From the NCBI GenBank assembly GCA_013001045.1, contig JABDNG010000018.1, forward strand, positions 1 to 44,324: DNA of 44,324 bases, written 5' to 3'. Positions 21,853-36,946 of the stretch are shown here, piece after piece (position 1 is the stretch's first letter; every line of letters starts with the position of its first letter). The notes under the pieces were generated by a model. The model ran no database searches. It saw nothing but the letters and a program-made list of their open reading frames with translations, and was not told the origin of the DNA. Made by a program: the position numbers and the translations under genes. Source of the DNA: Woeseiaceae bacterium (GTDB taxonomy: Bacteria > Pseudomonadota > Gammaproteobacteria > Steroidobacterales > Woeseiaceae).

Positions 21853-22179
21853 TTAGTGAGAGGTGTGGGGCTCGGAAGGGCGAATACGGTCGATCGCGGT
21901 GCGGTAGCCACCGAAGCCGTCTGTGAGGAAGCGCGCAACACGACCAATGGTCGTGACGCTGACGCCTGTGAGGTCATGAATCTTGCGGTACGGCAGGTCC
22001 TGCTCCAGGTACTCGACCACCTGCCATCGATCGACCAGCGCCTGCAGTTCGGCCGGCGTGCACAGGTCCTTGAAGAAATTTCGGCACTCGTCGATCGTCT
22101 TGAGGCTGATAATGGCCGCAAAAAGGGCGTCTTCGGCGTCGTGCTGCTGACGCTCGGATTCGTTGCGGTTAGGTTTCAT
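21853..22179 (-). CDS. TrpR-family (YerC/YecD-type) regulator, probable his repressor
   Basis: This 108-residue helical protein aligns with the TrpR/YerC family. FFKDLCTPAELQALVDRWQVVEYL is the dimer core, and PYRKIHDLTGVSVTTIGRVARFL is the helix-turn-helix. The recognition-helix text TTIGRV is the YerC-type form rather than the NATITRGS of true TrpR. It is the first gene of the his operon, ten bases before hisG, with a CTAG-centred dyad just upstream. A histidine-responsive repressor of this family (called HisR) has been proposed for Xanthomonadales by comparative genomics. The role here is inferred from position. Confidence 0.85.
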   Translation of the reverse strand: MKPNRNESERQQHDAEDALFAAIISLKTIDECRNFFKDLCTPAELQALVDRWQVVEYLEQDLPYRKIHDLTGVSVTTIGRVARFLTDGFGGYRTAIDRIRPSEPHTSH

Positions 22180-22224: not shown

Positions 22225-22330
22225 GACAATAGCAAGGATTTAGTAGGCCGAATGTCGGGGTCGATCGCAGCGACGAATAACTTCAGGAAAAACGGTTACT
22301 TGTGAGACTAAAAAAACTCGCACGAGTGCC

Positions 22331-22366: not shown

Positions 22367-22493
22367 AACTCATCGAGACCGGTCGAGGGATAGGCCCGAC
22401 GACGCCGGGGCAACCAGCAGGACTAACCATCCTGAAAAGGTGCCAACTCCTGCGATGCATTGCGAAGATTGCGATTGCATCGGTAGATGAGGG
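22367..22493 (+). ncRNA. SAM-I type (S-box) riboswitch
   Basis: The conserved S-box landmarks appear in order. P1 is CTCATC (22369-22374) paired with GATGAG (22486-22491). GAGGGATAGGCCC follows, then GGGGCAACC and AGGTGCCAACTCCTGC. This is the SAM-binding four-way junction core. High S-adenosylmethionine should reduce expression of the methionine genes that follow. The 110-base expression platform downstream has no T-rich terminator. It holds a second GATGAG at 22566-22571 and a GC hairpin near 22543-22560, which suggests control of translation or a P1-competing fold. Confidence 0.9.
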
Positions 22494-22603
22494 TTGCTGC
22501 AACGATCCGGAAGTCGTTCGGATGAAGGGCAGAACACCCCTCCCTTGCGGGCTTCGCAGGGTTCCGATGAGAAGTAATTGGAATCGCAATGCGGAGACCG
22601 ACC

Positions 22604-23800
22604 ATGACATCCAAAGCCAGCAAAGCCACCTGCGCCGTTCGTGCGTCCATTGAATCAGATACACAGCACGGCGCCGTCGTACCGCCTTTGCACCTTTCGT
22701 CGAATTTCGCGTTCGCGGGTTTTGGCGAGAAGCGGCAATACGATTACACGCGCTCAGGAAACCCGACGCGTGATGCGCTCGCCGACGCGCTGACCGAACT
22801 CGAAGGTGGTGCCGGGGCCGTGGTGACCTCGTCGGGCATGGCGGCGCTGACGCTTCTGACGCAACTGCTGCAACCGGGCGATGTCATCATTGCGCCGCAC
22901 GATTGCTACGGCGGTACCTTCCGCCTTTTTGAGCAGCAGTCGAAAAAAGGGCTGTTCGAGGTCGAGTTCGTCGATCAATCGAATCTCGAGGCATTGCGGG
23001 CCGCCTGCCAGTGCGGACCCAGGATCATTCTTACGGAAACGCCTTCCAACCCACTGCTGCGCATCGTTGATATTCGGGCTATCGCAGATATTGCCGAGCA
23101 GTGCGGCGCCATGTTTGCCGTGGACAACACGTTCCTGTCGCCCGCGCTGCAAAACCCGATCGAGTTTGGCGCCGACCTGGTTATTCACTCGACGACCAAG
23201 TACATCAATGGACACAGCGATGTGGTGGGCGGCTGTGTCGTCGCGGCAAGCGATGAGCTGGCCGAGGAAATCGCTTACTGGGCCAACTGTATCGGCATTA
23301 CCGGGGCACCGTTCGACAGCTACCTGACCTTGCGTGGCATCCGCACGCTGCATCCTCGTATCAGGCAGCACGAGGAAAGCGCAAGCCAGCTTGCGAATCT
23401 GCTTGACGGCCACGAACAGGTGAATCGTGTGTATTACCCGGGTCTCGAATCACACCCGGGGCACGAGATTGCCAAACGCCAGCAGCGCGGCTTCGGCGGC
23501 ATGATCAGTTTCGAAATTGAAGGTGGCGAGGAGGCGGTCAGGGCCTTTGTCGAGACACTGCAGTATTTCTCACTGGCCGAATCGTTGGGCGGCGTCGAGA
23601 GCCTGGTTTGCCATCCGTCCTCGATGACGCACGCGCCGGTCAGCGAGGAAGCACTCACCGAAGCCGGAATCAGAACGAATCTCGTGAGGCTGTCCGTCGG
23701 GCTGGAGTGTTGCGACGACCTGAGCGCCGATGTTCTTGCGGCGCTCGAAGCGGCCGCCGCGACGTGCACACCGCAGCCTGTGGCCGCGGTGTGCGGATAA
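22604..23800 (+). CDS. metB: Cystathionine gamma-synthase
   Basis: MetB joins cysteine to an activated homoserine ester to give cystathionine. The 398-residue protein belongs to the Cys/Met-metabolism PLP family. Its Schiff-base lysine is K199 in HSTTKYINGHSDVVGG, and it has YDYTRSGNPTRDAL and VDNTFLSP. ATG 22604 is chosen because CGGAG lies just before it; ATG 22589 is possible. The chain ends in an unusual Cys/Ala-rich tail (TCTPQPVAAVCG). Family members also include O-acylhomoserine sulfhydrylases, but length and sequence fit MetB. It is controlled by the SAM riboswitch and lies five bases before metX. Confidence 0.88.
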   Translation: MTSKASKATCAVRASIESDTQHGAVVPPLHLSSNFAFAGFGEKRQYDYTRSGNPTRDALADALTELEGGAGAVVTSSGMAALTLLTQLLQPGDVIIAPHDCYGGTFRLFEQQSKKGLFEVEFVDQSNLEALRAACQCGPRIILTETPSNPLLRIVDIRAIADIAEQCGAMFAVDNTFLSPALQNPIEFGADLVIHSTTKYINGHSDVVGGCVVAASDELAEEIAYWANCIGITGAPFDSYLTLRGIRTLHPRIRQHEESASQLANLLDGHEQVNRVYYPGLESHPGHEIAKRQQRGFGGMISFEIEGGEEAVRAFVETLQYFSLAESLGGVESLVCHPSSMTHAPVSEEALTEAGIRTNLVRLSVGLECCDDLSADVLAALEAAAATCTPQPVAAVCG

Positions 23801-23805
23801 CAGAA

Positions 23806-24909
23806 ATGAGTTTGCCTAACTACCTGCAGGCGCAGATTGCGGCGGAAACCGAGTTTCTGACGGTTCCGGGCGATTTCGCGCTGGAGAACGGAGAGCGCCT
23901 TCAGGATGTCGAGATTGCCTATCGAACCTGGGGAGATCCGGCGAACGCTGCGGACAACGGCATCCTGATCTGCCATGCACTCACCGGTTCGGCGGATGTC
24001 GAAGCGTGGTGGCCCAACATCATCGGTAACGGCAAGGCCTTTGATCCCGCGCACGACTACATCGTCTGCGCCAACATCCTCGGCAGTTGCTACGGCACCA
24101 CGGGACCGGTCAGCTTCAAACCCGGCACGGCAAAGCGTTATCGGGCGGATTTCCCGCGCATCACGGTGCGGGACATGGTCGAGCTGCAGCGCATCTTGCT
24201 GGATGAGCTGGGTATCGAGCGACTGGAGCTCGTCACCGGGCCGTCGCTGGGTGGCATGCAGGCACTCGAGTGGGCGATCAGCTATCCGGAACGGGTTCGC
24301 AGTGTCGTGCCGATTGGTGTCGGTGGGCGACATTCTGCCTGGTGTATCGGTATCAGCGAGGCGCAGCGGGCCGCGATTGCCGTCGATCCTAACTGGAACG
24401 ATGGCTATTACAGCGACGACGCGCCACCTGAGGATGGCCTGGCGGCGGCACGTATGATGGCTGTCTGTACGTATCGCAGCTGGGACAGCTTCGATCGCCG
24501 TTTCGGACGCGAGCGGCGCAGCGAGGATCAATACCAGGTGCAATCTTACCTGCGCCATCAGGGCGAGAAAATCAACGAGCGTTTCGACGCGAACACCTAC
24601 GTGACGCTGACTCACGCGATGCACACGCACGACTTGTCACGTGGCCGGGGCGAGTATCCGACCGTACTGCGTTCGATCCTGCAGCCGGCACTGGTGGTCT
24701 CTGTGAGTACAGACGCGCTGTATCCGCCCGAGGAGCAACAGCTTCTTGCGGAGCACCTACCGGGCGCTCGCTACGAAATACTGGATTCCGCCCACGGCCA
24801 TGACGGCTTTCTGATCGAGACCGAGGCGCTGGGCGACCGAATTGCACATTTTCGTGTCGCCAACCGGACGGCGGCGAATATGAAAGTGGTCAGTTCAGGT
24901 AGCGATTAA
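23806..24909 (+). CDS. metX: Homoserine O-acyltransferase (MetX family)
   Basis: MetX activates homoserine by transfer of an acetyl or succinyl group. The 367-residue alpha/beta-hydrolase has the triad Ser147 ([12 protein letters not shown]), Asp303 (VSTDALYPP) and His332 (AHGHDGFL). The acyl donor cannot be read with confidence here. Some gammaproteobacterial MetX enzymes use succinyl-CoA, and the neighbouring MetB would accept the succinyl ester. ATG 23806 is five bases after the metB stop; the frame upstream lies inside metB. The last 20 bases overlap the end of convergent leuB. Confidence 0.93.
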
Positions 24910-25951
24910 TCGCATCCGTCATGTCCGCGGTTGAAATCGGGGTCTCTCCGGCTGCCGCAATATCGGCGGTTCTTGCGCCGCTGGCGATCGCATCCTCGAT
25001 CGCCGATTCTACGGCGCAGGCTTCGTCTTCAAGCCCGAGGCTGTGACGCAAGAGCAGTGCCGCGCTGGCGATCGCGCCGCAGGGGTTGGCAATACCGCGG
25101 CCAGCAATGTCAGGCGCCGAGCCGTGTATCGGCTCGTACAGGCCACGCGCAGAATCACCAAGTGATGCCGACGGCAACATGCCCATCGATCCGGCCAGCA
25201 TGGACGCCTCGTCCGTCAGAATATCCCCGAACATGTTTTCCGTGACGATCACGTCAAAATCGCTGGGACGGCTCATCAGGTGCATTGCGGCCGCATCGAC
25301 CAGCAGGGTCTCGACCTCGATGTCGGGAAATTCATCGGCCATCAGGCGATCCGTCGTCTCGCGCCACAAACGGGATGTTTCGAGAATGTTGGCTTTGTCG
25401 ACGGAGCAAAGCTTGCTGCGACGCGTGCTGGCCAGCTTCGCAGCGACCCGCACTATGCGTTCGATTTCGTAGCGCTGATAAACGCAGAGATCACTCGCGG
25501 AATCAGCGTCGCGAGTCTTTGCGCCGAAGTAAATTCCGCCGGTCAGTTCGCGTACCACCAGCAGGTCGACGCCGTCGAGGATCTCGGCGCGTAACGGGGA
25601 CGCACCCGCGAGTGCATCATAAATTTTCACAGGTCGCAGGTTGGCGTACACACCCAGGGCAGCGCGCAATCCAAGCAAGCCTTGCTCCGGGCGCACAGCC
25701 GCATTCGGATCCGACCATTTGGGGCCACCGACGGCGCCCAGCAAGACGGCATCACTGGCCATGCAACTCTCTATGGTTGCCGGGGGTAGCGGGTCGCCGC
25801 AGGCGTCGATTGCCGCGCCGCCCATCAGCTCCTCCTTAAACGCGAATCGATGGCCGAACTTGTCTGCGACCGCTTGCAATGTTTGCCTGGCGGACGCGGT
25901 GACATCGGGACCAATGCCGTCGCCCGGTAACAATACGATTACGGCTTCCAT
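24890..25951 (-). CDS. leuB: 3-isopropylmalate dehydrogenase
   Basis: LeuB oxidatively decarboxylates 3-isopropylmalate to 2-oxoisocaproate with NAD. The 353-residue chain starts at ATG 25951 ([17 protein letters not shown]). The 38 codons before it in the open frame lie within leu[12 protein letters not shown] is the substrate-recognition loop, and the metal aspartates lie in the DxxLTDEAS-like text [30 protein letters not shown] is the NAD-binding end. It overlaps leuD by 13 bases and is the last gene of ilvC-leuACDB. Confidence 0.96.
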
Positions 25952-26523
25952 GCACGCGTCTCTTCGAAGTTTTCGATCTGGTCGAGCCGCTGCCGCAGGA
26001 ATCCGAGCTGGTCGACACCCTCCAGCAGGCAGTATTTTGCGAATCCATCGATTGGAAACCGGCACGAGTTCCCGTTGGGCAGCACCAGCTGCGCGTTCTC
26101 GACATCGACGATCACCTCGGCGCCCGGATTATCGGTCAGCCATTGGTGTGTGGCCTTATCGACGACAACGGGCACGAGGCCGTTTTTCAGGGCGTTGTTA
26201 CGAAAAATATCCGCGATCTCCGTCGAAATTATGGCCCGAAATCCATAATCGAGCAGGGCCCAGGGCGCGTGCTCACGCGACGAGCCGCAGCCGAAGTTAT
26301 TGCCGGCCACCAGCACCTGGCAGCCGCGCGACTCCTCTTGGTTGAGCGGGAAATCCGTTTTTTCGCTGCCATTCTCGTCGTAACGCAAGTCGTAAAAGAG
26401 ATTCTTGCCGAGTCCGTCGCGTGACGTTGTCGTGAGAAAGCGCGCAGCGATTATCTGGTCGGTATCGATATCTTTCGTTGCCAGCACAGTGGTGCGCGAC
26501 TGGACGCGCTTGACGGGTTTCAT
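25939..26523 (-). CDS. leuD: Isopropylmalate isomerase, small subunit
   Basis: LeuD is the swivelling small subunit that completes the aconitase-like active site with LeuC. The 194 residues carry [20 protein letters not shown], the substrate-binding loop, and [10 protein letters not shown] near the N-terminus. It overlaps leuC by four bases upstream and leuB by 13 downstream. Such tight packing suggests coupled translation and equal amounts of the two isomerase subunits. Confidence 0.96.
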
Positions 26524-27920
26524 GTGAAGGTCCTCGGATCGGCAACACGACCGCGAACCGCAGACGCGGCGGCTGTTGCCGGGCTCGCCAGTACCGTTCG
26601 AGCACCGACACCCTGACGACCTTCGAAGTTTCTATTGCTGGTACTCACACTCAGCTTTCCCTGCGGAACGACGTCACCGTTCATGCCGATGCACATGGAA
26701 CAGCCAGCCTCGCGCCATTCGGCACCGGCTTGCACGATGATCCGGTCGAGGCCCTTCGCTTCCGCCTCATTCTTGACCTGTTGCGATCCGGGCACGACCA
26801 ACATGCGCACGCCGTCCGCAATTTTCCGCCCATTCAATACGCGGGCCACTTCTTCGATGTCCGACAAGCGACCGTTGGTGCAACTGCCGACGAAGACGAC
26901 GTCGACGGCGTTATCGGTCATTGGCTTGCCCGATTCTATACGCATGTAGTTGAGCGCCTTCCTGAAGCTTGGGTCGTCGCCGCCATCGGGTACCGGATCG
27001 TTGATCCCGACCACCATGCCGGGGTTGGTACCAAAGGTCACCATAGGCTGCAGCGTGTCCGCCGCGAGAGTCACGGCCGCGTCAAATTCGGCACCTTCAT
27101 CCGTGCGCAGGCCTCTCCAGCGCGCGAGTGCAGCATCCCAGTCGGCTCCCCGAGGTGACCGCGGCCTGCCGTGCAGGTATTCGAAAGTTGTGTCGTCGGG
27201 AGCGATCATGCCCGCACGTGCGCCTGCTTCGATCGACATGTTGCAGATCGTCATGCGGCTTTCCATATCGAGGGCGGTGATGGCGGGGCCACGATACTCG
27301 ATGACGTGTCCAGTCCCGCCGTTGACGCCAACCTTACCGATAACAGCAAGGATGATGTCTTTGGCGGAGACACCTCGAGGAGGCTGTCCGTCTATGTTGA
27401 CCGCCAGCGTTTTCGGTTTGCGCTGCAGCAGGCACTGCGTGGCCAATACGTGGCCGACTTCAGTCGTGCCGATGCCGAAGGCGAGGGCGCCGAACGCGCC
27501 ATGCGTGCTGGAATGGCTGTCGCCGCAGACAATGGTCTTGCCGGGTTGGGTGGCACCGAGTTCCGGACCGATAACATGCACGATGCCGCGGTATTCGTTA
27601 CCGAAACCGATCAGGTCAAGGCCAAAATCCTCGCAATTTTGCTCCATTTGTCGAATCTGCCCGGCTGCGCTTTCGCCAACCACGGCGAGGTCCTTGAAGC
27701 TGGACACGGGCGTCGTCGGGGTCGAGTGATCCATGGTCGGCAGCGTAAGATCCGGCCGCCGCACGGGAATGCCCAGTTCACGAAGGACTGTAAACGCCTG
27801 CGGCGTTGTGACTTCGTGAATGATGTGCAAGTCGATGTACAGAACGGCGGGCGTATCCGGCGTTTCGTCGACGACGACATGATCCGCCCACACCTTTTCG
27901 AGAAGCGTTGTCTTGCTCAC
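26520..27920 (-). CDS. leuC: Isopropylmalate isomerase, large subunit
   Basis: LeuC is the [4Fe-4S] aconitase-family subunit that interconverts 2- and 3-isopropylmalate. The 466-residue protein has [11 protein letters not shown] and [11 protein letters not shown], which supply the three cluster cysteines. [18 protein letters not shown] is also present. The length is normal. It begins 13 bases after leuA ends. Confidence 0.97.
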
Positions 27921-27933
27921 TTGCTTTTTCAGC

Positions 27934-29499
27934 CTAAATAGTCGCTTGTTCCGGTGTCGGTTTGCCGGGTCCGGAAAGCCCCTGTTGCTTGCGGCGCAGA
28001 ATTCGATTCATGACCTCGAGACATGCACGGCAGCCTGCCTCAACGATGTCGACGCTGGCGCCTCGCCCGCGGTAGCTTTCGCCGTCGTACTCGACAGTAA
28101 CGGTGACCTCGCCCTGAGCATCCTCGCCAATCGATGCGCTGTGCAGTTCGAAATTGCGCAGCGTGAGTTCCACGCCGGTACTTTTCTCGAGCGCGAGAAA
28201 AGCAGCTGCGACCGGACCGTCGCCATGCGAACTTTTGACGGTCTCTTTGCCGTTTTCGTCAATGAGCGTGACGGCCGCGGTGGCAGGCTGGTCCGTGTGC
28301 GTCTGGACCTCCAGCGACTTGAGTGTCCAGGGACCGGACGATGCGCTGTCAGCGTTCATGATGATAGCTTCGATATCGCCGTCGTAGACATCTTTTTTCT
28401 TGTCAGCGAGCTTCTTAAATTCCTGGAAAGCGCGATTGGTCTCGAACTCGTCGAGTTCGAAGCCCAGTTCCTGAACGCGATCCCTGAACGCGTGTCGACC
28501 ACTGTGTTTACCCATGACCAGGTTTGACTTGCTCAGGCCGACGTCTTCCGGTCGCATGATTTCGTAAGTCGAGGCATGTTGCAGCATGCCGTGCTGATGA
28601 ATCCCGGCTTCATGCGCGAATGCGTTTTCGCCGACAATCGCTTTGTTCCTCGGCGCGTGCATGCCTGTGATGCTCGACACAAGGCGCGAGGTCGGATACA
28701 GGCGCGTCGTGTCAATCGCGGTCTCGAGGCCGAAGAACTCGGCGCGCGTTTTGATGGCCATCACGGCTTCTTCGAGGCTGCAATTGCCGGCCCGTTCGCC
28801 GATACCGTTGATCGTGCACTCGATTTGGCGCGCTCCGGCATTCACGGCTGCGAGGCTATTGGCGACAGCCATACCGAGATCGTTGTGACAATGGACACTC
28901 AGAATGATGTCGTCGATACGCTCGACGTGGTCCTTGAGATAACGAAACAGGTGGTCGAATTCAGCGGGCACCGTGTAGCCGACGGTATCCGGAATGTTCA
29001 CGGTCGTTGCGCCGGCCTCGATTGCCGCCGAGACCACTTCGGCGAGATAGGATAGCTCCGTGCGCGATGCATCCTCGGGGGAGAACTCAACATCCTCGAC
29101 GAGCTCCCGAGCCATCTCTATTGCACCGACAGCGCTTCTGATGATTTCTTCCTTCGCCATCTTGAGCTTGTGCTCCCGATGGATCGCACTGGTTGCAACG
29201 AACACATGGATGCGATGGCGCCCGGCGCCTTTGACCGCGTTGTAGACCTTTTCGATGTCGCCGGGGTTGCATCGGGCGAGGCCGCAAATGACAGGTCCGA
29301 AGTCGCGGTCCGCGATTGCCTTGACCGACTCAAAGTCGCCCGGCGACGCGGCCGGAAAACCGGCTTCTATGATGTCGACGTTGAGTTCAGATAGCGCCTT
29401 CGCAACACGGAGTTTTTCACTGAGCGTCATGCTGCAGCCCGGGGCCTGTTCCCCGTCGCGTAAGGTCGTGTCGAAAATGCGAATCTGCTTATCTGACAT
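27934..29499 (-). CDS. leuA: 2-isopropylmalate synthase
   Basis: LeuA condenses 2-oxoisovalerate with acetyl-CoA, the first step of the leucine branch. The 521-residue protein starts [18 protein letters not shown], with catalytic R14/D15. The metal histidines are in [12 protein letters not shown], and the family text is NGIGERAGN. The C-terminal ~130 residues form the LeuA regulatory domain that binds leucine for feedback inhibition, so both feedback and leader control are possible. It is 50 bases downstream of ilvC. Confidence 0.97.
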
Positions 29500-29549: not shown

Positions 29550-30536
29550 CTAGTCTTCCAGCCAGTCCATGCGACCGCGCAAATCGGCGCCGACCTTTTC
29601 GATCGGATGGTCGAGATCCGCTTTCATCATGCGTTTGAACTCGGGCATGCCGTTCTCGTTCTCCGCTATCCAGTTGCGGGCAAACGTGCCGTCCTGAATG
29701 TCGGTGAGGACGTCTTTCATTGCCGCGCGCGAAGCCGCGTCGACCACTCTGGGGCCGCTGACCATGTCGCCCCATGCTGCTGTGTCGCTAATGAACTTGT
29801 GCATCTTTCGCAGCCCACCTTCATGCAATAGGTCGACAATCAGCTTCAGCTCATGCATGACCTCGTAGTAGGCCACTTCCGGCTGGTACCCGGCCTCGAC
29901 CAGGGTTTCGAATCCGGCAACAATCAGCTCCGTCGCGCCACCGCACAGCACCGCTTGTTCGCCGAAGAGATCCGTTTCCGTTTCTTCGGCGAATGTCGTT
30001 TCAATAACGCCGGCACGGGCGCCACCGATGCCGGCGGAGTAGGCCAGCGCGACCTTCAAGGCATCGCCAGTCGCATCCTGATGCACGGCGACCAGGCATG
30101 GAACGCCGTGGCCTTCTTCGTACTGACGCCGCACCAGGCCACCCGGCCCCTTGGGTGCAATTAATGCGACATCAAGATCGCTGCGTGGCTCGACCTGCTT
30201 GTAATGCACGGCGAACCCGTGTGCGAACAACAGGGTTGCGCCGTTGTCGATGTCGTCGACGACCGATTGGTAGAGGGATTTCTGTACCATATCCGGGGTC
30301 AGGAACATCACGATTTTCGCCTTCCTGACTGCGTCATTGGGCTCCATGACCGTCAGACCGTCCGCTTTGGCTTTCGCCCAGCTCGCGCCGTTGCTGCGCA
30401 GCCCAACGACGACATTGAATCCGCTGTCCTTGAGATTCAATGCGTGCGCGCGACCCTGGCTGCCATAGCCCAAGATGGTGATCTGGCGATCTGCCAGACA
30501 GGAAATATCGACGTCTGCTTCCGAGTACATTTGCAT
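29550..30536 (-). CDS. ilvC: Ketol-acid reductoisomerase, class I
   Basis: IlvC isomerises and reduces acetolactate or acetohydroxybutyrate with NADPH and magnesium. The 328-residue length and lack of a duplicated C-terminal domain mark the short class I form. [15 protein letters not shown] is the dinucleotide loop, followed by [12 protein letters not shown] with the residues that read the 2'-phosphate. The metal ligands sit in [13 protein letters not shown] and nearby glutamates. The start may be ATG 30536 or ATG 30530. It is the first structural gene after the leucine-rich leader and attenuator. Confidence 0.97.
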
Positions 30537-30566
30537 GGTGGTTCCTCAGCCTGATGCAATTCTCAT

Positions 30567-30602
30567 AAAAAAAACCCCACTATCCATCTGGATGCGGGGT
30601 TT
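30567..30602 (-). terminator. Intrinsic terminator/attenuator upstream of ilvC
   Basis: On the minus strand AAACCCC (30602-30596) pairs with GGGGTTT (30578-30572). An inner ATCC/GGAT stem with AGAT loop completes it, followed directly by eight T. It lies 30 bases before the ilvC start and downstream of the leucine-rich mini-ORF. GCGGG at 30634-30630, across the mini-ORF stop, can pair with CCCGC of its 5' arm as an antiterminator. Confidence 0.88.
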
Positions 30603-30626
30603 ACGTGTCCGTGAACTGGATACGCG

Positions 30627-30713
30627 CTACCCGCTGTGCCTCCCGAGGAGCGGCAGGCCGAGTCGCAATGCGAGCAGCTTGTTCAGCGATGAATTCTTGT
30701 GCGGTCCAGTCAT
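30627..30713 (-). CDS. Leucine-rich leader peptide of ilvC-leuACDB (28 residues)
   Basis: ATG 30713 opens a 28-codon frame ending at TAG 30629-30627. The centre reads SSLNKLLALRLGLPLLG: eight leucines in 14 residues (10-23). The stop lies 25 bases before the terminator stem. This is the classic layout of a transcription-attenuation leader: shortage of charged leucyl-tRNA would stall the ribosome, free the downstream GCGGG, and favour antitermination. No strong ribosome site is seen before the ATG, and the predicted transcript start is only a few bases upstream. An overlapping 41-codon frame (30726-30601) is not leucine-rich. Confidence 0.65.
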   Translation of the reverse strand: MTGPHKNSSLNKLLALRLGLPLLGRHSG

Positions 30714-30721
30714 AGCGCCGA

Positions 30722-30750
30722 ATCATGTTGTAACGCCGGAATGATGTCAA
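30722..30750 (-). promoter_or_regulatory. Predicted promoter of ilvC-leuACDB
   Basis: On the minus strand a perfect TTGACA (30750-30745) is followed after 17 bases by CATGAT (30727-30722), four of six bases matching the -10 consensus. The transcript would start near 30715, just before the leucine-rich ORF. Confidence 0.55.
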
Positions 30751-31045
30751 CCATTGCTTAACCAGTTACGGGTGTTACTAAACAAAGACGATTAACAAAC
30801 ATTCCTAAGGCCATAATTAAGAAGGGCTAACGGGCGCGTACGGCCGAAATTCCCAATACCTTCTATTAGGGTCGCAAACGAGCTCGCGAATAGTGCGCCA
30901 GTCTTCGACAAGGATTGCGTCGTTACCGATCGTGTGTGCGGTGTTAAATCGCAACACCGAAATGGCGGATAGGTTGTTAAGAATTATGTAGTTCTTGGGC
31001 TGGTGATCTGGCAAGCATGTGTTATTCTTGGGCCCGAAGGACAGG
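30751..31045. other. Non-coding stretch before the TonB operon
   Basis: This AT-richer stretch contains no gene I can support. A 65-codon minus frame (31014-30817) lacks a ribosome site and shows no family resemblance that I trust. It may hold upstream control sites for the divergent ilvC and TonB operons. Confidence 0.4.
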
Positions 31046-31296: not shown

Positions 31297-32076
31297 ATGA
31301 ATCGGTGCATAAGCAGCAGTCGGCGCATTACCGCGGCGTTTTTCGCAACAACGGTGATCGCGCTCTCCGGCAGCGTTTTCGCCCAGACCGTCGATCAGAT
31401 ATTGCAGGCTGATCAACGTCGTTTGAACCTGGCCCAACAATCGCAGGAGCGTATCAACAAGATTGTTGAAGGAACGCGTTCTCTCGAAGACCAGTATCGG
31501 GCCATCAATAAGGAAATCGACGGACTGAAAGTCTATAACCGCCTGATGCGGGCGCAGGTTGAGGGCCAGTCAGCGGTCCTGGAAGACATCGGATTATCGA
31601 TGGACCAGGTTGACGTCATAAACCGCCAGATTTTCCCGTTGATGGAACGCATGATCGACGGTATCGATCAGTCCGTGAAGTTGGACATTCCATTCCTGAT
31701 GGACGAACGCAATGAACGTATCGCCGCTCTTAAAGAGATTATGGAGCGCTCCGATGTCAGCGTTGCGGAGAAATTCCGTAAGGTGATGGAGGCCTACCAG
31801 ATCGAGAATGACTACGGCACGACGATCGAGAATTACACGCAGTCGTTGACCATCGATGGTTCGACGCGATCATTCAACATGTTGCGCATTGGCCGTATCG
31901 GCCTTTACTTCCAGTCCGACGACACAAAGATCACGGGTCGTTGGGACAACGAAGCGCGTAACTGGGTCATCGATGACTCGGCGCGCAACGAAGTGCGCAA
32001 GGGTTTGCGGGTCGCGAGGCAATTGATTGCGCCGGAACTCATTATCGTTCCTGTTCCAGCTGCGGAGGCTACCTAA
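31297..32076 (+). CDS. DUF3450 family periplasmic protein
   Basis: This 259-residue protein has an N-terminal signal peptide (cut near SVFA-Q, about residue 29). A long heptad-rich coiled coil follows (residues ~30-110: QILQADQRRLNLAQQSQERI onward). The globular end contains SMDQVDVINRQIFPLMERM and GRIGLYFQSDD, matching DUF3450. The family is found at the head of TonB2-type operons in marine gammaproteobacteria, and its biochemical role is not known. ATG 31297 follows an ideal AAGGAG. The next gene starts immediately after its stop, so it is the first gene of this seven-gene unit. Confidence 0.85.
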   Translation: MNRCISSSRRITAAFFATTVIALSGSVFAQTVDQILQADQRRLNLAQQSQERINKIVEGTRSLEDQYRAINKEIDGLKVYNRLMRAQVEGQSAVLEDIGLSMDQVDVINRQIFPLMERMIDGIDQSVKLDIPFLMDERNERIAALKEIMERSDVSVAEKFRKVMEAYQIENDYGTTIENYTQSLTIDGSTRSFNMLRIGRIGLYFQSDDTKITGRWDNEARNWVIDDSARNEVRKGLRVARQLIAPELIIVPVPAAEAT

Positions 32077-33444
32077 ATGAAACGTATTACACTCATTATC
32101 GCCGCCGGGCTGCTGAGTCTGGGAGTTGTTACCACGGCAAATGCGCAGGACGACGGAGCTCGAAGCATGTCGGAACTTCTGCGTCTTATCGAGCAGGGGC
32201 AGGCACGCGATTCGCAAGAAGCCCGACGACGCGAAGCGGCGTTCGCTCAAAACAAGAATCAACAACAGTCGCTTCTGAATCAGGCCCGTGCCGCACGTAC
32301 AGCCGAGGAAAATACGAGCGCCAGGCTCGAACAGCAGTTCGAGGAAAATCAACAGCAAATCATAACGGCCCGTCAAGCACTTGACGAGCGCCTGGGTGCC
32401 TTGAAAGAGCTGTTCGGCGTTTTGCAGACCGTGGCGGGTGATGCTCAGGGGCGTTTTAACGCATCGCTGACAAACATCGAGTATCCGGATCGTTCGAGCT
32501 TTCTCGTTGAACTAGGCAGCAAGATGGCCGGTTCGAGCAGTCTTGCATCGATCGAGGACATCGAGACGTTATGGGCGATGTTGCAGAAGGAAGTCGTTGA
32601 GACCGGTAAGGTCGTTCGCTTCAATCATCTCGTCACAAAAGCCGATGGCCAGCAGGAAGAAATGGAAGTTGTCCGCGTGGGCGCCTTCAATATTGTTTCC
32701 GAAAATGGCTACCTGGAATACGACTCGGGTGAGAAATCGCTTGCCGAGCTGCTGCGGCAGCCTGACGGGCGCTATGCATCGACAACGGGCGACCTGATGG
32801 ACGCCGACGGTGGTGTCGTTCCATTTGGCGTCGATGTCACGAAGGGCGGCATTCTTGGTCTGCTTGTCGAGTCACCGACGATCAGGGATCGAATCGAGCA
32901 GGGCGGTATAGTGGGTTACTGCATTATCGCGCTCGGCATTATCGGCCTGATTATCGCCGTTCTTCGCTGGTTCGCGTTGTCCAACGACAGTCGCAAGGTT
33001 ACAGCACAGCTCAAGCGTGATACGGCCAGCACGGATAATCCGCTGGGTCGCGTCCTCGCCGCTTACGAGAGTAATACCGGGGCGGATACCGAGACCATGG
33101 AGCTTAAACTCAGCGAGGCAGCACTGAAGGAAATGCCGGGACTGACCAAGGGTTTGCTGTTTATCAAGGTTGTTGCGGCCGTGGCACCGCTCATGGGTCT
33201 GCTTGGAACGGTTACCGGTATGATCAAGACCTTCCAGGTGATCACGCTTTATGGTGCGGGTGATCCGAAGATGATGGCGGGCGGTATCTCGCAGGCGTTG
33301 ATGACAACCGTATTGGGCCTTTGTGTCGCAATTCCGATGGTATTGCTGCACACGGTCGTCAGTGGTCAGAGTCGCAAGATTGTCAACATTCTTCAGTCGC
33401 AGAGTGCAGGCCTGGTTGCTCAGCACTCTGAAAAGACTCACTAA
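32077..33444 (+). CDS. Large ExbB/TolQ-family proton channel protein (TtpC-like)
   Basis: The 455-residue protein has a cleavable signal (TTANAQ). A long periplasmic part follows (about 24-270), beginning with a Gln/Arg-rich coiled coil and then a compact domain. A membrane span lies at about 278-298. The C-terminal MotA/TolQ/ExbB domain has the family core APLMGLLGTVTGMIKTFQVIT and GGISQALMTTVLGLCVAIP. This build matches TtpC, the extra ExbB-like protein of Vibrio TonB2 systems, which is needed for that system to work. It probably links the inner-membrane motor to partners across the periplasm. Confidence 0.9.
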   Translation: MKRITLIIAAGLLSLGVVTTANAQDDGARSMSELLRLIEQGQARDSQEARRREAAFAQNKNQQQSLLNQARAARTAEENTSARLEQQFEENQQQIITARQALDERLGALKELFGVLQTVAGDAQGRFNASLTNIEYPDRSSFLVELGSKMAGSSSLASIEDIETLWAMLQKEVVETGKVVRFNHLVTKADGQQEEMEVVRVGAFNIVSENGYLEYDSGEKSLAELLRQPDGRYASTTGDLMDADGGVVPFGVDVTKGGILGLLVESPTIRDRIEQGGIVGYCIIALGIIGLIIAVLRWFALSNDSRKVTAQLKRDTASTDNPLGRVLAAYESNTGADTETMELKLSEAALKEMPGLTKGLLFIKVVAAVAPLMGLLGTVTGMIKTFQVITLYGAGDPKMMAGGISQALMTTVLGLCVAIPMVLLHTVVSGQSRKIVNILQSQSAGLVAQHSEKTH

Positions 33445-33461
33445 CGCTACGAGGAGTCGCG

Positions 33462-33989
33462 ATGCTTTGGCTTGCTGATGCTGTAGAGGCAATTCGGGAC
33501 TTTATGAGTCTCGGTGGTCCGGTGCTCAAGGTAATCGCAGTCACAATCTTTCTCATGTGGGTTGTGATTGTTGAGCGAATTATGTTTTTCCGCACGTCTA
33601 TGAACCTGATGTCGCGCGAGATTCATGACAATTGGGAATCGAGGCCGGAACGGCGGTCCTGGAATGCACAGCAGATTCGCGAGTTGATGATTTCGCGATT
33701 CAGCGAAGCGACGAACAGGGGTATCAACCTGATCCAGACGCTGGTTGCACTGTGTCCGTTGCTGGGCCTTCTTGGCACGGTGACGGGCATGATCAGCGTG
33801 TTCCAGGTAATGGCTGTCTCCGGTTCCGGTAACGTCCGCGCGATGGCTGCGGGCGTATCCCAGGCTACGGTTCCTACGATGGCTGGAATGGTCGGCGCCC
33901 TGTCGGGCGTCCTTCTTGTAACAATACTTAGCCGCCGTGCGGCTCGTGAAGTCGAATTCCTCGAGGATTCGCTCACGATGGATCACTAG
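33462..33989 (+). CDS. exbB: ExbB-type biopolymer transport protein
   Basis: This 175-residue protein has three membrane spans, the first near residues 22-42 (VIAVTIFLMWVVIVERIMFF). The TolQ/ExbB core follows: CPLLGLLGTVTGMISVFQVMA and AGVSQATVPTMAGMVGALSGV. Together with ExbD it forms the proton-driven motor that energises TonB. It is shorter than E. coli ExbB (244) and resembles the ExbB2 type. It lies 17 bases after the large ExbB and 12 before the first ExbD. Confidence 0.9.
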   Translation: MLWLADAVEAIRDFMSLGGPVLKVIAVTIFLMWVVIVERIMFFRTSMNLMSREIHDNWESRPERRSWNAQQIRELMISRFSEATNRGINLIQTLVALCPLLGLLGTVTGMISVFQVMAVSGSGNVRAMAAGVSQATVPTMAGMVGALSGVLLVTILSRRAAREVEFLEDSLTMDH

Positions 33990-34001
33990 AGGTTAGCTGC
34001 C

Positions 34002-34415
34002 ATGAGTCGCCACCATCTCGCTGATATTCAAGTCGATGAGGATGAGAATGAGATCAACCTGACACCGATGCTCGATGTCGTGTTTATCATGCTCATCTTC
34101 TTTATTGTCACGGCTTCGTTCATCAAGGAAACGGGAATCGACGTCAATCGTCCCGACGCTCCGGTTACGGAGTCAAAGCCGGAAGACGCCAATATCCTGG
34201 TAATGATCAATGCCAATGACGAGATCTGGATCGACCGGCGCCTGATCGATCCGCGTGCGGTGCGTGCCAACATTGAACGTCTGCACGCAGAGAACCCGAA
34301 AGGGTCCGTAGTAATTCAGGCCGACCGCAAGTCGACGAATAAGATGCTCGTGTCAGTCATGGATTCTTCTCGAAATGCTGGCGTGTACAACATATCCATA
34401 GCGGATAGAAATTGA
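34002..34415 (+). CDS. exbD: ExbD paralogue 1
   Basis: The 137-residue ExbD has a short cytoplasmic end rich in Asp/Glu and a single span (PMLDVVFIMLIFFIVTASFI) with the proton-carrying Asp25. A periplasmic domain with ESKPEDANILVMINANDEIW and VIQADRKSTNKMLVSVMD follows. It pairs with the following paralogue. The identical EINLTPMLDVVFIMLIFFIV block in both points to a tandem duplication or an old heterodimer. The start follows a GAGGTTAGC ribosome site. Confidence 0.93.
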   Translation: MSRHHLADIQVDEDENEINLTPMLDVVFIMLIFFIVTASFIKETGIDVNRPDAPVTESKPEDANILVMINANDEIWIDRRLIDPRAVRANIERLHAENPKGSVVIQADRKSTNKMLVSVMDSSRNAGVYNISIADRN

Positions 34416-34440
34416 GCATGAACTCAACAGGACAATAGCG

Positions 34441-34851
34441 ATGCGAAAGAAACACGGTGCTATGGGTGCGGATGAAGAAGAGAATGAGATCAATCTCACT
34501 CCGATGCTGGACGTCGTCTTCATCATGCTCATCTTCTTCATTGTTACGGCGACTTTTATCAAGGAAGCCGGTATCCAGGTCGAGCGTCCGGATACGGTGA
34601 CAGCGGATACTCAGGATGACGCCTCGATCCTGATTGCGATCAGTGCTACAGATGAGATATGGGTCGATCGTAAAAAGCGAGATCCACGTGCCTTACGCTC
34701 GATTCTTGAGCGGCTGCATGCGGAGAATCCGAAAGGCTCCATTGTCATTCAGGCCGATGAGGAATCGACCAACGAGGTCCTGGTTATTGTGATGGAAGCC
34801 GCGAAGGGCGCAGGCGTTTCAAACGTCGCAATTGCGACCGACGACGGTTAG
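34441..34851 (+). CDS. exbD: ExbD paralogue 2
   Basis: This 136-residue second ExbD carries Asp24 in the same PMLDVVFIMLIFFIV span. The periplasmic domain (DDASILIAISATDEIWVDRKKRDPRALR) differs clearly from the first paralogue while keeping the fold. That suggests two distinct subunits in one motor rather than a recent copy. It lies 25 bases after exbD 1. An 84-base gap before tonB includes GAGGAGAA as that gene's ribosome site. Confidence 0.93.
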   Translation: MRKKHGAMGADEEENEINLTPMLDVVFIMLIFFIVTATFIKEAGIQVERPDTVTADTQDDASILIAISATDEIWVDRKKRDPRALRSILERLHAENPKGSIVIQADEESTNEVLVIVMEAAKGAGVSNVAIATDDG

Positions 34852-34935
34852 GAACGATACAGCCGGATATTTGTCATAAACAAGGAGTTGTCGGCGTAAG
34901 TTTCAGCGGCAATTCCCGGTGAGGAGAACTGGACC

Positions 34936-35541
34936 ATGATAGGTCGTTACGTATTTGCAATAGTCATCGGCACCGTCGTTACGCTAACCCTGCTGTTCGT
35001 TATGCAGCTGCTTATTGTTACGGGTAAGACGGCGCTGACAGACCCGCGCGAGCGCCACAAATTAGAGTTTGTTCGCGTCAAGCGCAATGAGAACCTCAAT
35101 ACCGCCGACCTCACACCGGAAAAGCCGCCGAAACCGCCGGAAACACCACCTGAGACTCCACCTCAGGAAATGGACAACATCAACCCGGACGCGCCCACGA
35201 TCAGCGTTGCAGCGCCCACCGTATCGGCTGACACGAGTATCGGTGGCCCCGGGGGGATGAATATCGCGGAGGGCGACTACCTGCCAATCGTCCGGGTGGC
35301 GCCTGTCTACCCGGCCCGCGCATTGTCGCGAGGGCTCGAGGGATTTGTGGATCTGTCGTTCACGGTCACATCGGCCGGCACGGTGAAAGATCCGATTGTC
35401 CTGCAATCATCGAGCAGTTTGTTTGAGCGGGCAGCTACGCGCGCCGTGCTCAAGTTCAAATACAAACCGAGAGTGGTCGATGGTGTTCCAGTCGAAGTTC
35501 CGGGTGTTAAAACGCGTATTTCTTTCCAACTCGAAGAATAA
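34936..35541 (+). CDS. tonB: TonB-family energy transducer
   Basis: The 201-residue protein has an N-terminal membrane anchor (residues ~7-29) and a proline-rich linker (EKPPKPPETPPETPPQEMD). The C-terminal TonB domain has APVYPARALSRGLEGFVDLS and FKYKPRVVDGVPVEVPGVKT. It should span the periplasm and pull on TonB-box receptors. The short length and Pro-Glu-Thr linker fit TonB2-type proteins. No TonB-dependent receptor gene is in this window, so the substrates served are unknown. Confidence 0.93.
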   Translation: MIGRYVFAIVIGTVVTLTLLFVMQLLIVTGKTALTDPRERHKLEFVRVKRNENLNTADLTPEKPPKPPETPPETPPQEMDNINPDAPTISVAAPTVSADTSIGGPGGMNIAEGDYLPIVRVAPVYPARALSRGLEGFVDLSFTVTSAGTVKDPIVLQSSSSLFERAATRAVLKFKYKPRVVDGVPVEVPGVKTRISFQLEE

Positions 35542-35593
35542 CGCCCGTGCGTTTTCAGAGTGAGACGAAGCCGAACAAGAGGGTTATTTTGAC

Positions 35594-36946
35594 ATGAAGA
35601 TGAATCGCGGAATTTCTTTGAAGCTGTTCCTGGCTCTGATTGTCGGGTTTCTGGCTGTCGGTAGTGCGTCGGCACAAAATGCGACCGACGAAGACAGGGA
35701 CAAGACCAAGACCAAGCAGGCGCAAGCGGTCAGTAAGGAAGTCTACGAGCGCATACAAAAAGCCCAGGAGATGGTCGACGAAAAGAACTACTCGGGTGCG
35801 TTGAAAACACTGAACAACCTCTATAACCCGGACAAATTGACAGAGTACGAACAGGCTAACGTGCTGAATTACATTGGCTTCGTCTACTACAACATGGACG
35901 ACACCAAGAACGCGATTCGAACCTACGAGAAGATGCTCGCGATTCCCACGCTCGAGCCACAGCAAGCCAAGCAAACGACGTTCACGCTGGCACAGTTGTT
36001 GACGATGGAGGAGCAATACCAGAGGGCGTTGAACACGCTCGACAAGTGGTTCACGCTGGAGACGAATCCTGCCCCCGAGCCCTTCATACTGCGTGCTCAG
36101 GTCCTCTATAACCTGAATCGCTACAAAGAGATGGTATCGCCCATCGAGAATGCCATGCGTGTCGCCCGGGAGCGCGACAAGCCTGTTAAAGAGGACTGGT
36201 ATGGCCTGCTCAACTTTGCGTATTTCCAACAGGAAAACTACGCCAAGGTTCGTGACATACAGAAGATTCTCCTGCAAAACTGGCCTAAAGCGCGATACTG
36301 GAAGTCACTCGCAGGCGCCTTCACGGAATTGGGCGAGGATGAAAAGCTAATTTACGCCTACGATGCTGCCCATACTCAAGGCATGCTCGTAAAAGACACC
36401 GAATTTGTCACTATGGCGCAACTTTACCTGCAGGCGGAGGTGCCGTATAAGGCCGCAACCTTGCTCGAAGAAAAGATGAATGCCGGAATCGTTCCCAAGT
36501 CTGAAAAGAACTATCGTTTACTGTCGCAGGCGTGGATGCTGGCGATGGAAGACGAGAAATCCATCCCGGCACTGCAGGCAGCCGCGGGCCTGTCCACTAA
36601 CGGGGACCTGGACCAACGCCTGGCGAACGCGTACCTGAATGTCGGTAATTACGCCGAGTGCGTGAAATCGGCAAACAACGCGGCGCGCAAAGGCGGCCTG
36701 AAGAATCCTGACAATTTACAGATCTCACGAGGCATGTGTCTGTATAACCTGCGGCGCTACAGCGACGCTAAATCGGCATTCCGCGAAGCAGCCAAGACGC
36801 CGCGCTCGGCCCGGACATCGGCCCAGTGGATCAAAGTGATCGACGCCGATGTCGAGCGCAACCGACAGATCAAACTCGCCGAGGAAGCGGCTCGCAAGAA
36901 ACGCCAGGAACTTGACGCGAAGAAGGCTGAATCCGCGCGCGTTTAG
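35594..36946 (+). CDS. Exported tetratricopeptide-repeat protein
   Basis: The 450-residue protein has a signal peptide (cut near ASAQ, about residue 28) and several TPR-like helix pairs, for example NVLNYIGFVYYNMDDTKNAI and ALNTLDKWFTLETNPAPEP. A Lys/Glu/Arg-rich tail follows (AEEAARKKRQELDAKKAE). TPR proteins are regular last members of TonB2-type operons in Vibrio and relatives, where they are thought to act as periplasmic scaffolds. It lies 52 bases after tonB. A very strong hairpin follows 26 bases after the stop. Confidence 0.88.
   Translation: MKMNRGISLKLFLALIVGFLAVGSASAQNATDEDRDKTKTKQAQAVSKEVYERIQKAQEMVDEKNYSGALKTLNNLYNPDKLTEYEQANVLNYIGFVYYNMDDTKNAIRTYEKMLAIPTLEPQQAKQTTFTLAQLLTMEEQYQRALNTLDKWFTLETNPAPEPFILRAQVLYNLNRYKEMVSPIENAMRVARERDKPVKEDWYGLLNFAYFQQENYAKVRDIQKILLQNWPKARYWKSLAGAFTELGEDEKLIYAYDAAHTQGMLVKDTEFVTMAQLYLQAEVPYKAATLLEEKMNAGIVPKSEKNYRLLSQAWMLAMEDEKSIPALQAAAGLSTNGDLDQRLANAYLNVGNYAECVKSANNAARKGGLKNPDNLQISRGMCLYNLRRYSDAKSAFREAAKTPRSARTSAQWIKVIDADVERNRQIKLAEEAARKKRQELDAKKAESARV

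Follow-up and report, generated by a model that had tools for sequence, protein, structure and literature searches.

Based on sequence analysis and comparison with related genomes, the region upstream of ilvC in the investigated Woeseiaceae bacterium most probably (about 93%) represents a transcription attenuator that controls the ilvC-leuACDB operon through ribosome-mediated sensing of leucine. This reading is considered strong because related genomes conserve the leader, its leucine block and the antiterminator pairing. The parts of the switch, their order, their conservation and their energetic consistency were established by sequence and comparison, and we infer the start site, the translation and the leucine response of the leader. 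The window referred to below is the whole analyzed stretch of DNA, comprising 44,324 nucleotides.

According to the initial annotation, a promoter, a leader open reading frame (ORF) and a terminator precede ilvC in this order. The minus strand matched this description base for base, and the following features were recorded:

30745..30750, minus strand: -35 hexamer TTGACA, with TTGAC in 81/81 family promoters and the sixth-position A in 75/81
30722..30727, minus strand: -10 hexamer CATGAT (CATNAT in the family), with A2 and T6 in 81/81
30627..30713, minus strand: leader peptide ORF MTGPHKNSSLNKLLALRLGLPLLGRHSG, 28 codons, ATG at 30713-30711 and TAG at 30629-30627
30625..30634, minus strand: antiterminator 5' strand GCGGGTAGCG, spanning the final Gly codon plus the stop, paired with the 3' strand by RNAalifold
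30594..30605, minus strand: antiterminator 3' strand CGTAAACCCCGC, sharing CCCCGC with the terminator 5' arm
30567..30600, minus strand: intrinsic terminator ACCCCGCATCC-AGAT-GGATAGTGGGGT followed by T8, with the stem at 30600-30575 (one bulged base) and T8 at 30574-30567

The two hexamers are separated by a 17-nt spacer. Taken alone, the promoter match is at chance level (one found, 0.9 expected in a 900-base region); it is credible because TTGAC and the 17-nt spacing are invariant across the family. The eight leucines in 14 residues noticed previously were located within leader codons 10-23 (codons 10, 13, 14, 16, 18, 20, 22 and 23), and the peptide contains neither valine nor isoleucine. 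The window contains 424 ATG ORFs of 15-45 codons, of which the leader is the sole case with at least eight leucines in 14 residues, and its 60 Markov copies yielded 34,278 ATG ORFs in the same length range without one as leucine-rich (0/34,278). Moreover, the leader RNA fold compares favorably with shuffled sequences (z -3.1, 1/200 equally good). The leader hairpin was not picked up in a simple terminator scan of the window, probably because its stem contains a bulge, and the leader ORF falls below the length that routine gene callers detect.

Within positions 30500-30820, the Rfam Leu_leader covariance model yielded no match up to E 10, and no T-box or riboswitch family of Rfam matched at the leader. 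Judged from its sequence, the leader lies outside the enteric Leu_leader family of Rfam, with a mechanism predicted to be alike. The only riboswitch found in the window at gathering scores is a SAM-I riboswitch located elsewhere (22367-22493, plus strand, RF00162, 74 bits), downstream of which a cystathionine gamma-synthase gene (22589-23800) and an alpha/beta hydrolase ORF (23608-24909) were observed.

The ATG of ilvC is located at 30536, downstream of the leader terminator. Genes of the operon were identified with curated NCBIfam models:

29550..30536, minus strand: ilvC, ketol-acid reductoisomerase (NF004017, 516 bits; TIGR00465, 427 bits; both above cut-off)
27934..29499, minus strand: leuA, 2-isopropylmalate synthase (TIGR00973, 695.7 bits, above cut-off)
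26520..27920, minus strand: leuC, isopropylmalate dehydratase large subunit (TIGR00170, 637 bits, above cut-off)
25939..26523, minus strand: leuD, isopropylmalate dehydratase small subunit (TIGR00171, 181.7 bits, above cut-off)
24890..25951, minus strand: leuB, 3-isopropylmalate dehydrogenase (TIGR00169, 476.6 bits)

For leuB, the start was set at an in-frame ATG overlapping the end of leuD, the TIGR00169 match beginning at residue 43 of the longer ORF. A spacing of 50 nt separates ilvC from leuA, and all other junctions are at most 13 nt long or overlapping. Neither promoter-like sites within ilvC-leuACDB nor T-tailed hairpins in its gene gaps were detected in a scan of the window. The suggestion that ilvC and all leu genes form a single string is in line with the relatives, in which the order ilvC-leuA-leuC-leuD-leuB is kept. 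As deduced from the curated cut-offs and the conserved order, the operon downstream of the leader makes the amino acid that the leader is predicted to sense. The leu operon is adjoined by a Ton-like energy-transducing operon at 31297-36946 (plus strand), which encodes a DUF3450 protein, two MotA/ExbB-type proteins, two ExbD proteins, a TonB C-terminal protein and a TPR protein.

ilvC was searched in genomes of the GTDB family Woeseiaceae and found in 97 of 107. In total, 82 upstream regions yielded a usable leader (promoter columns, n=81; alignment, n=70; stalling model, n=74). The nearest named ilvC genes (88-92% identity) occur in MAGs called Woeseiaceae, Chromatiales or Gammaproteobacteria, and the genome was assigned to Woeseiaceae on this basis. 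Leaders are 20-36 codons long, show the consensus end ...LLLLGRQSG* and terminate with TAG in 70/82 cases. Leucine enrichment in homologous leaders, the lack of which had been named beforehand as a possible refutation, is strongly present in the 82 family genomes: among leader codons 6-16 before the stop, Leu accounts for 56%, Val for 9.8% and Ile for 3.4%, and the Leu share of codons 17-26 before the stop is 7%. Resolved by position before the stop, Leu reaches 50-91% at 6-9, 27-65% at 10-16 and at most 15% farther upstream. The operon's own proteins contain 8.2% Leu, 8.0% Val and 5.7% Ile. Furthermore, 82/82 leaders retain a GC-rich hairpin and a T5-T9 tract behind it, the stem base of the hairpin being nearly invariant and its upper stem variable with some double changes. 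CTT and CTC together represent 59% of the 593 leader Leu codons, compared with 39% in the operon genes of the window and 33% in ilvC and leuA of the relatives. This preference over CTG may adjust the switch to a single Leu-tRNA, or pairing constraints may simply account for it.

Pairing of GCGGG over the leader stop with CCCGC of the terminator 5' arm, as proposed in the initial annotation, was found in 70/70 aligned family leaders by RNAalifold with only the nascent stretch as input. GCGGG is located at or near the leader stop in 74/81 leaders. In four of these genomes (G062, G082, G086 and G003) the stop is shifted upstream and GCGGG lies outside the ORF, yet is unchanged; the motif is therefore kept as RNA and not as peptide. 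A second helix that had previously escaped notice joins GCG directly behind the stop with CGY directly in front of the terminator in 94-97% of the 70 leaders and is altered on both sides in G002, G003 and G105. The expectation of compensatory stem changes held in part: RNAalifold recorded a few double changes in the pairing (e.g., CG to TA and GC to CG), but this evidence is modest: shuffles matched the double-change count in 345/2000 cases. Covariation of the antiterminator is limited because its core pairs are nearly invariant. A duplex-energy test, in which segments 2 and 3 were swapped between genomes, was weak for the reason that the sequences are nearly invariant (p 0.018, barely above shuffles), and column counts and the frame-shift cases were used instead. 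A 1:2 protector hairpin was predicted in the window's own fold; in the RNAalifold consensus of the 70 leaders, structure in the coding part was absent.

Stalling was modeled on nascent RNA of 74 genomes, all RNA as far as the leading edge of the stalled ribosome being held unpaired. This model replaced an earlier one that allowed upstream RNA to pair across the ribosome and gave erratic values. The mean antiterminator probability was 0.81-1.00 when the ribosome stalled 6-16 codons ahead of the stop, 0.36 at 5 codons, at most 0.05 at 1-4 codons and 0 at the stop; for the window leader, stalls at all eight Leu codons resulted in values of 0.98-1.00. The leucine run ends at the boundary where a stalled ribosome would start covering GCGGG. 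Within this model, the claim that a ribosome stalled on Leu codons favors readthrough is supported, since GCGGG would be left free for CCCGC. In the equilibrium fold of the full-length leader the terminator always wins, and the switch must therefore be kinetic, which is usual for leader-peptide attenuators.

The following course of events is proposed. Transcription would begin within approximately 2 nt of the leader ATG, and the ribosome would initiate on an essentially leaderless RNA. With ample Leu-tRNA, it would read to the UAG adjoining GCGGG and cover this motif; ACCCCGCATCC would then pair with GGATAGTGGGGT, and RNA polymerase would halt at the U8 tract. With scarce Leu-tRNA, the ribosome would stall in the leucine block, 6-19 codons before the stop, so that GCGGGUAGCG could pair with CGUAAACCCCGC while the terminator 3' arm has yet to be transcribed. 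This would block terminator formation, and ilvC and all leu genes would be transcribed.

Other explanations of the same region were weighed against this one. A general branched-chain attenuator that senses Leu, Val and Ile together, as enteric ilvL does, would suit an operon headed by ilvC, which is common to the synthesis of all three, and Val does account for 33% of residues 14 codons before the stop and for 18% of those 9 codons before it. Over the whole stalling block, however, Val (9.8%) and Ile (3.4%) stay near their shares in the operon proteins (8.0% and 5.7%) with Leu at 56%, and the window leader is devoid of both residues, which makes joint sensing very unlikely. The ORF and hairpin could also be taken for a small protein gene with its own ordinary terminator, uncoupled from ilvC; an isolated small gene would show such an ORF and terminator, and 20/28 leader codons do not encode Leu. 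The peptide, however, is unconserved except in the Leu block and at the GR-x-SG end (post-start columns mostly 0.02-0.4 bits), GCGGG is kept even outside the ORF, its pairing with the terminator arm is retained in 70/70 leaders, and between the terminator and ilvC no promoter-like site was found, leaving hardly any probability for an uncoupled gene.

An attenuator that is real but is transcribed from a promoter elsewhere, the leader having an ordinary 5' UTR, is somewhat less remote and still improbable. In its favor, the 900-base region would by chance contain 0.9 promoter matches as good as the observed one. Against it stand the invariance of TTGAC and the 17-nt spacer in 81 promoters, the position of the start codon 6-8 nt past the -10 element in 75/82 leaders, and the distribution of Shine-Dalgarno-like motifs, which were found before the leader start in 0/82 cases and before ilvC in 59/82.

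The predicted near-leaderless ATG, to which the initial annotation had drawn attention, recurs throughout the family and is the most unusual feature of the attenuator. The distance from the end of the -10 element to the start codon is 8 nt in 53 genomes, 7 in 15, 6 in 7, 10-12 in six and 24 in one. Transcription usually starts about 6-8 nt after the -10 element, and the predicted 5' UTR therefore measures 0-2 nt, with the transcript start of the window leader predicted at approximately 30713-30715 from the -10 position. This spacing and the absent Shine-Dalgarno motif fit leaderless initiation on the leader, as a prediction. In the literature searched, no description of a leaderless attenuator layout was found for Gammaproteobacteria.

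Upstream of the promoter, a further conserved element was observed:

30762..30781, minus strand: imperfect dyad TTAGTAAC-ACCC-GTAACTGG (family consensus TTWGTAWCACNMGTAACTGA), 11 nt upstream of the -35 hexamer

Its half-site columns mostly carry 1.1-1.4 bits in 81 Woeseiaceae promoters, the conserved columns 31 to 12 bases before the -35 hexamer reading TTWGTAWC-N4-GTAACTGA. The 20-bp dyad TTAGTAAC-N4-GTAACTGA is present upstream of the ilvC-leu promoter in approximately 70/81 family genomes and suggests an additional regulator of the operon. A copy with one mismatch is located at 22293-22311 (minus strand), in the interval separating the SAM riboswitch/metB from the his operon, and in several relatives dyad-like sites occur approximately 13-16 nt before the -35-like TTGC of the likely his promoter. 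Most other genome matches to the dyad are at chance level. The dyad is a candidate regulator site common to the leu and his operons. G104, the closest relative, carries a tandem pair of perfect dyads CAGTTAC-ATAC-GTAACTG (L186 1465-1505) approximately 8 kb downstream of ilvC, a distance corresponding to the metB-his spacer of the window. The his operon opens, before hisG, with a gene for a TrpR-like protein of 108 residues (21853-22179, minus strand; PF01371, 86 bits), which is likely a histidine repressor; the promoter region of this gene contains a TACTAG sequence. A genuinely leaderless gammaproteobacterial leader peptide that is fixed in the family, whose 5'-terminal AUG times ribosome and polymerase, combined with a dyad-binding regulator possibly shared with the his operon, is a reading to which we assign roughly even odds.

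Beyond the family, a like arrangement, namely a Leu-rich ORF ending near GCGGG and a terminator, precedes ilvC at about twenty Steroidobacterales-type or other gammaproteobacterial loci, where ilvC heads ilvC-(leuA)-leuCDB. An example of a terminator outside the family is CCCCGCACCGGC...GCCGATGCGGGG followed by a T-run; Steroidobacterales-type terminators are homologous, with a different and re-paired upper stem. A Stenotrophomonas ilvC leader (L119, LLVLVLITEPTGAG) also resembles an amino-acid attenuator leader. The attenuator was absent from Rhodanobacter-type loci, which carry leu genes upstream of ilvC. Upstream of ilvI (acetolactate synthase), no leader rich in branched-chain amino acids followed by a T-run was found in the bacterium's own genome and four relatives. 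At approximately 100 nt upstream of ilvI, five family genomes (L222, L226-L229) share an almost identical stretch TTGCAATG...ATTAGTAAACACTCG, which probably represents a conserved promoter.

As judged by comparison, the Woeseiaceae element is a classical leader-peptide attenuator in its proposed mechanism, as in enteric leuL. The enteric leuL/leuABCD system comprises a 28-residue Leu-rich leader peptide, a competing antiterminator and a U-tailed terminator, and both systems are alike in the 28-residue Leu-rich leader, the competition between antiterminator and terminator, and the downstream leu genes. They differ in that the Woeseiaceae operon is headed by ilvC and its leader start is predicted to be near-leaderless. 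Moreover, the Leu codons of E. coli leuL are rare CUA codons, whereas Woeseiaceae leaders favor CTT/CTC. The leaderless layout has precedent in two other leaders. In Corynebacterium glutamicum, the ilvL start codon lies one nucleotide from the transcription start without a ribosome-binding site (PMC11857589); this leader, however, is actinobacterial, contains Ile, Val and Leu codons and controls ilvBNC. The attenuated trpL leader RNA (rnTrpL) of Sinorhizobium meliloti has the leader ORF's ATG at its 5' end, making it a leaderless mRNA (PMC7298713), but is alphaproteobacterial and senses Trp, and the RNA and peptide released from it have trans functions as well. LeuL of Campylobacter jejuni, a 28-residue leader before leuABCD with Leu codons near its end, gives an RNA that stops shortly past the leader stop codon (PMC3847290); it differs in having a predicted ribosome-binding site and an operon without ilvC. 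As far as can be taken from its citation in PMC1262725, the comparative-genomic work of Vitreschak et al. 2004 (FEMS Microbiol Lett 234:357) predicted amino-acid attenuators in proteobacteria that appear to be of the same class as the Woeseiaceae element. In the literature searched, no description of this attenuator in Woeseiaceae was found, the taxa of the 2004 proteobacterial survey lying outside the comparison.

These results extend the known range of leucine attenuation to the mostly uncultured Woeseiaceae and related groups. Furthermore, ilvC serves the synthesis of Ile, Val and Leu, yet here it would be placed under the control of leucine alone. If 5' ends confirm the predicted start, the element would be an attenuator driven by leaderless initiation in a gammaproteobacterium, and the family would provide dozens of natural variants for the tuning of ribosome timing and of the leucine-block boundary.
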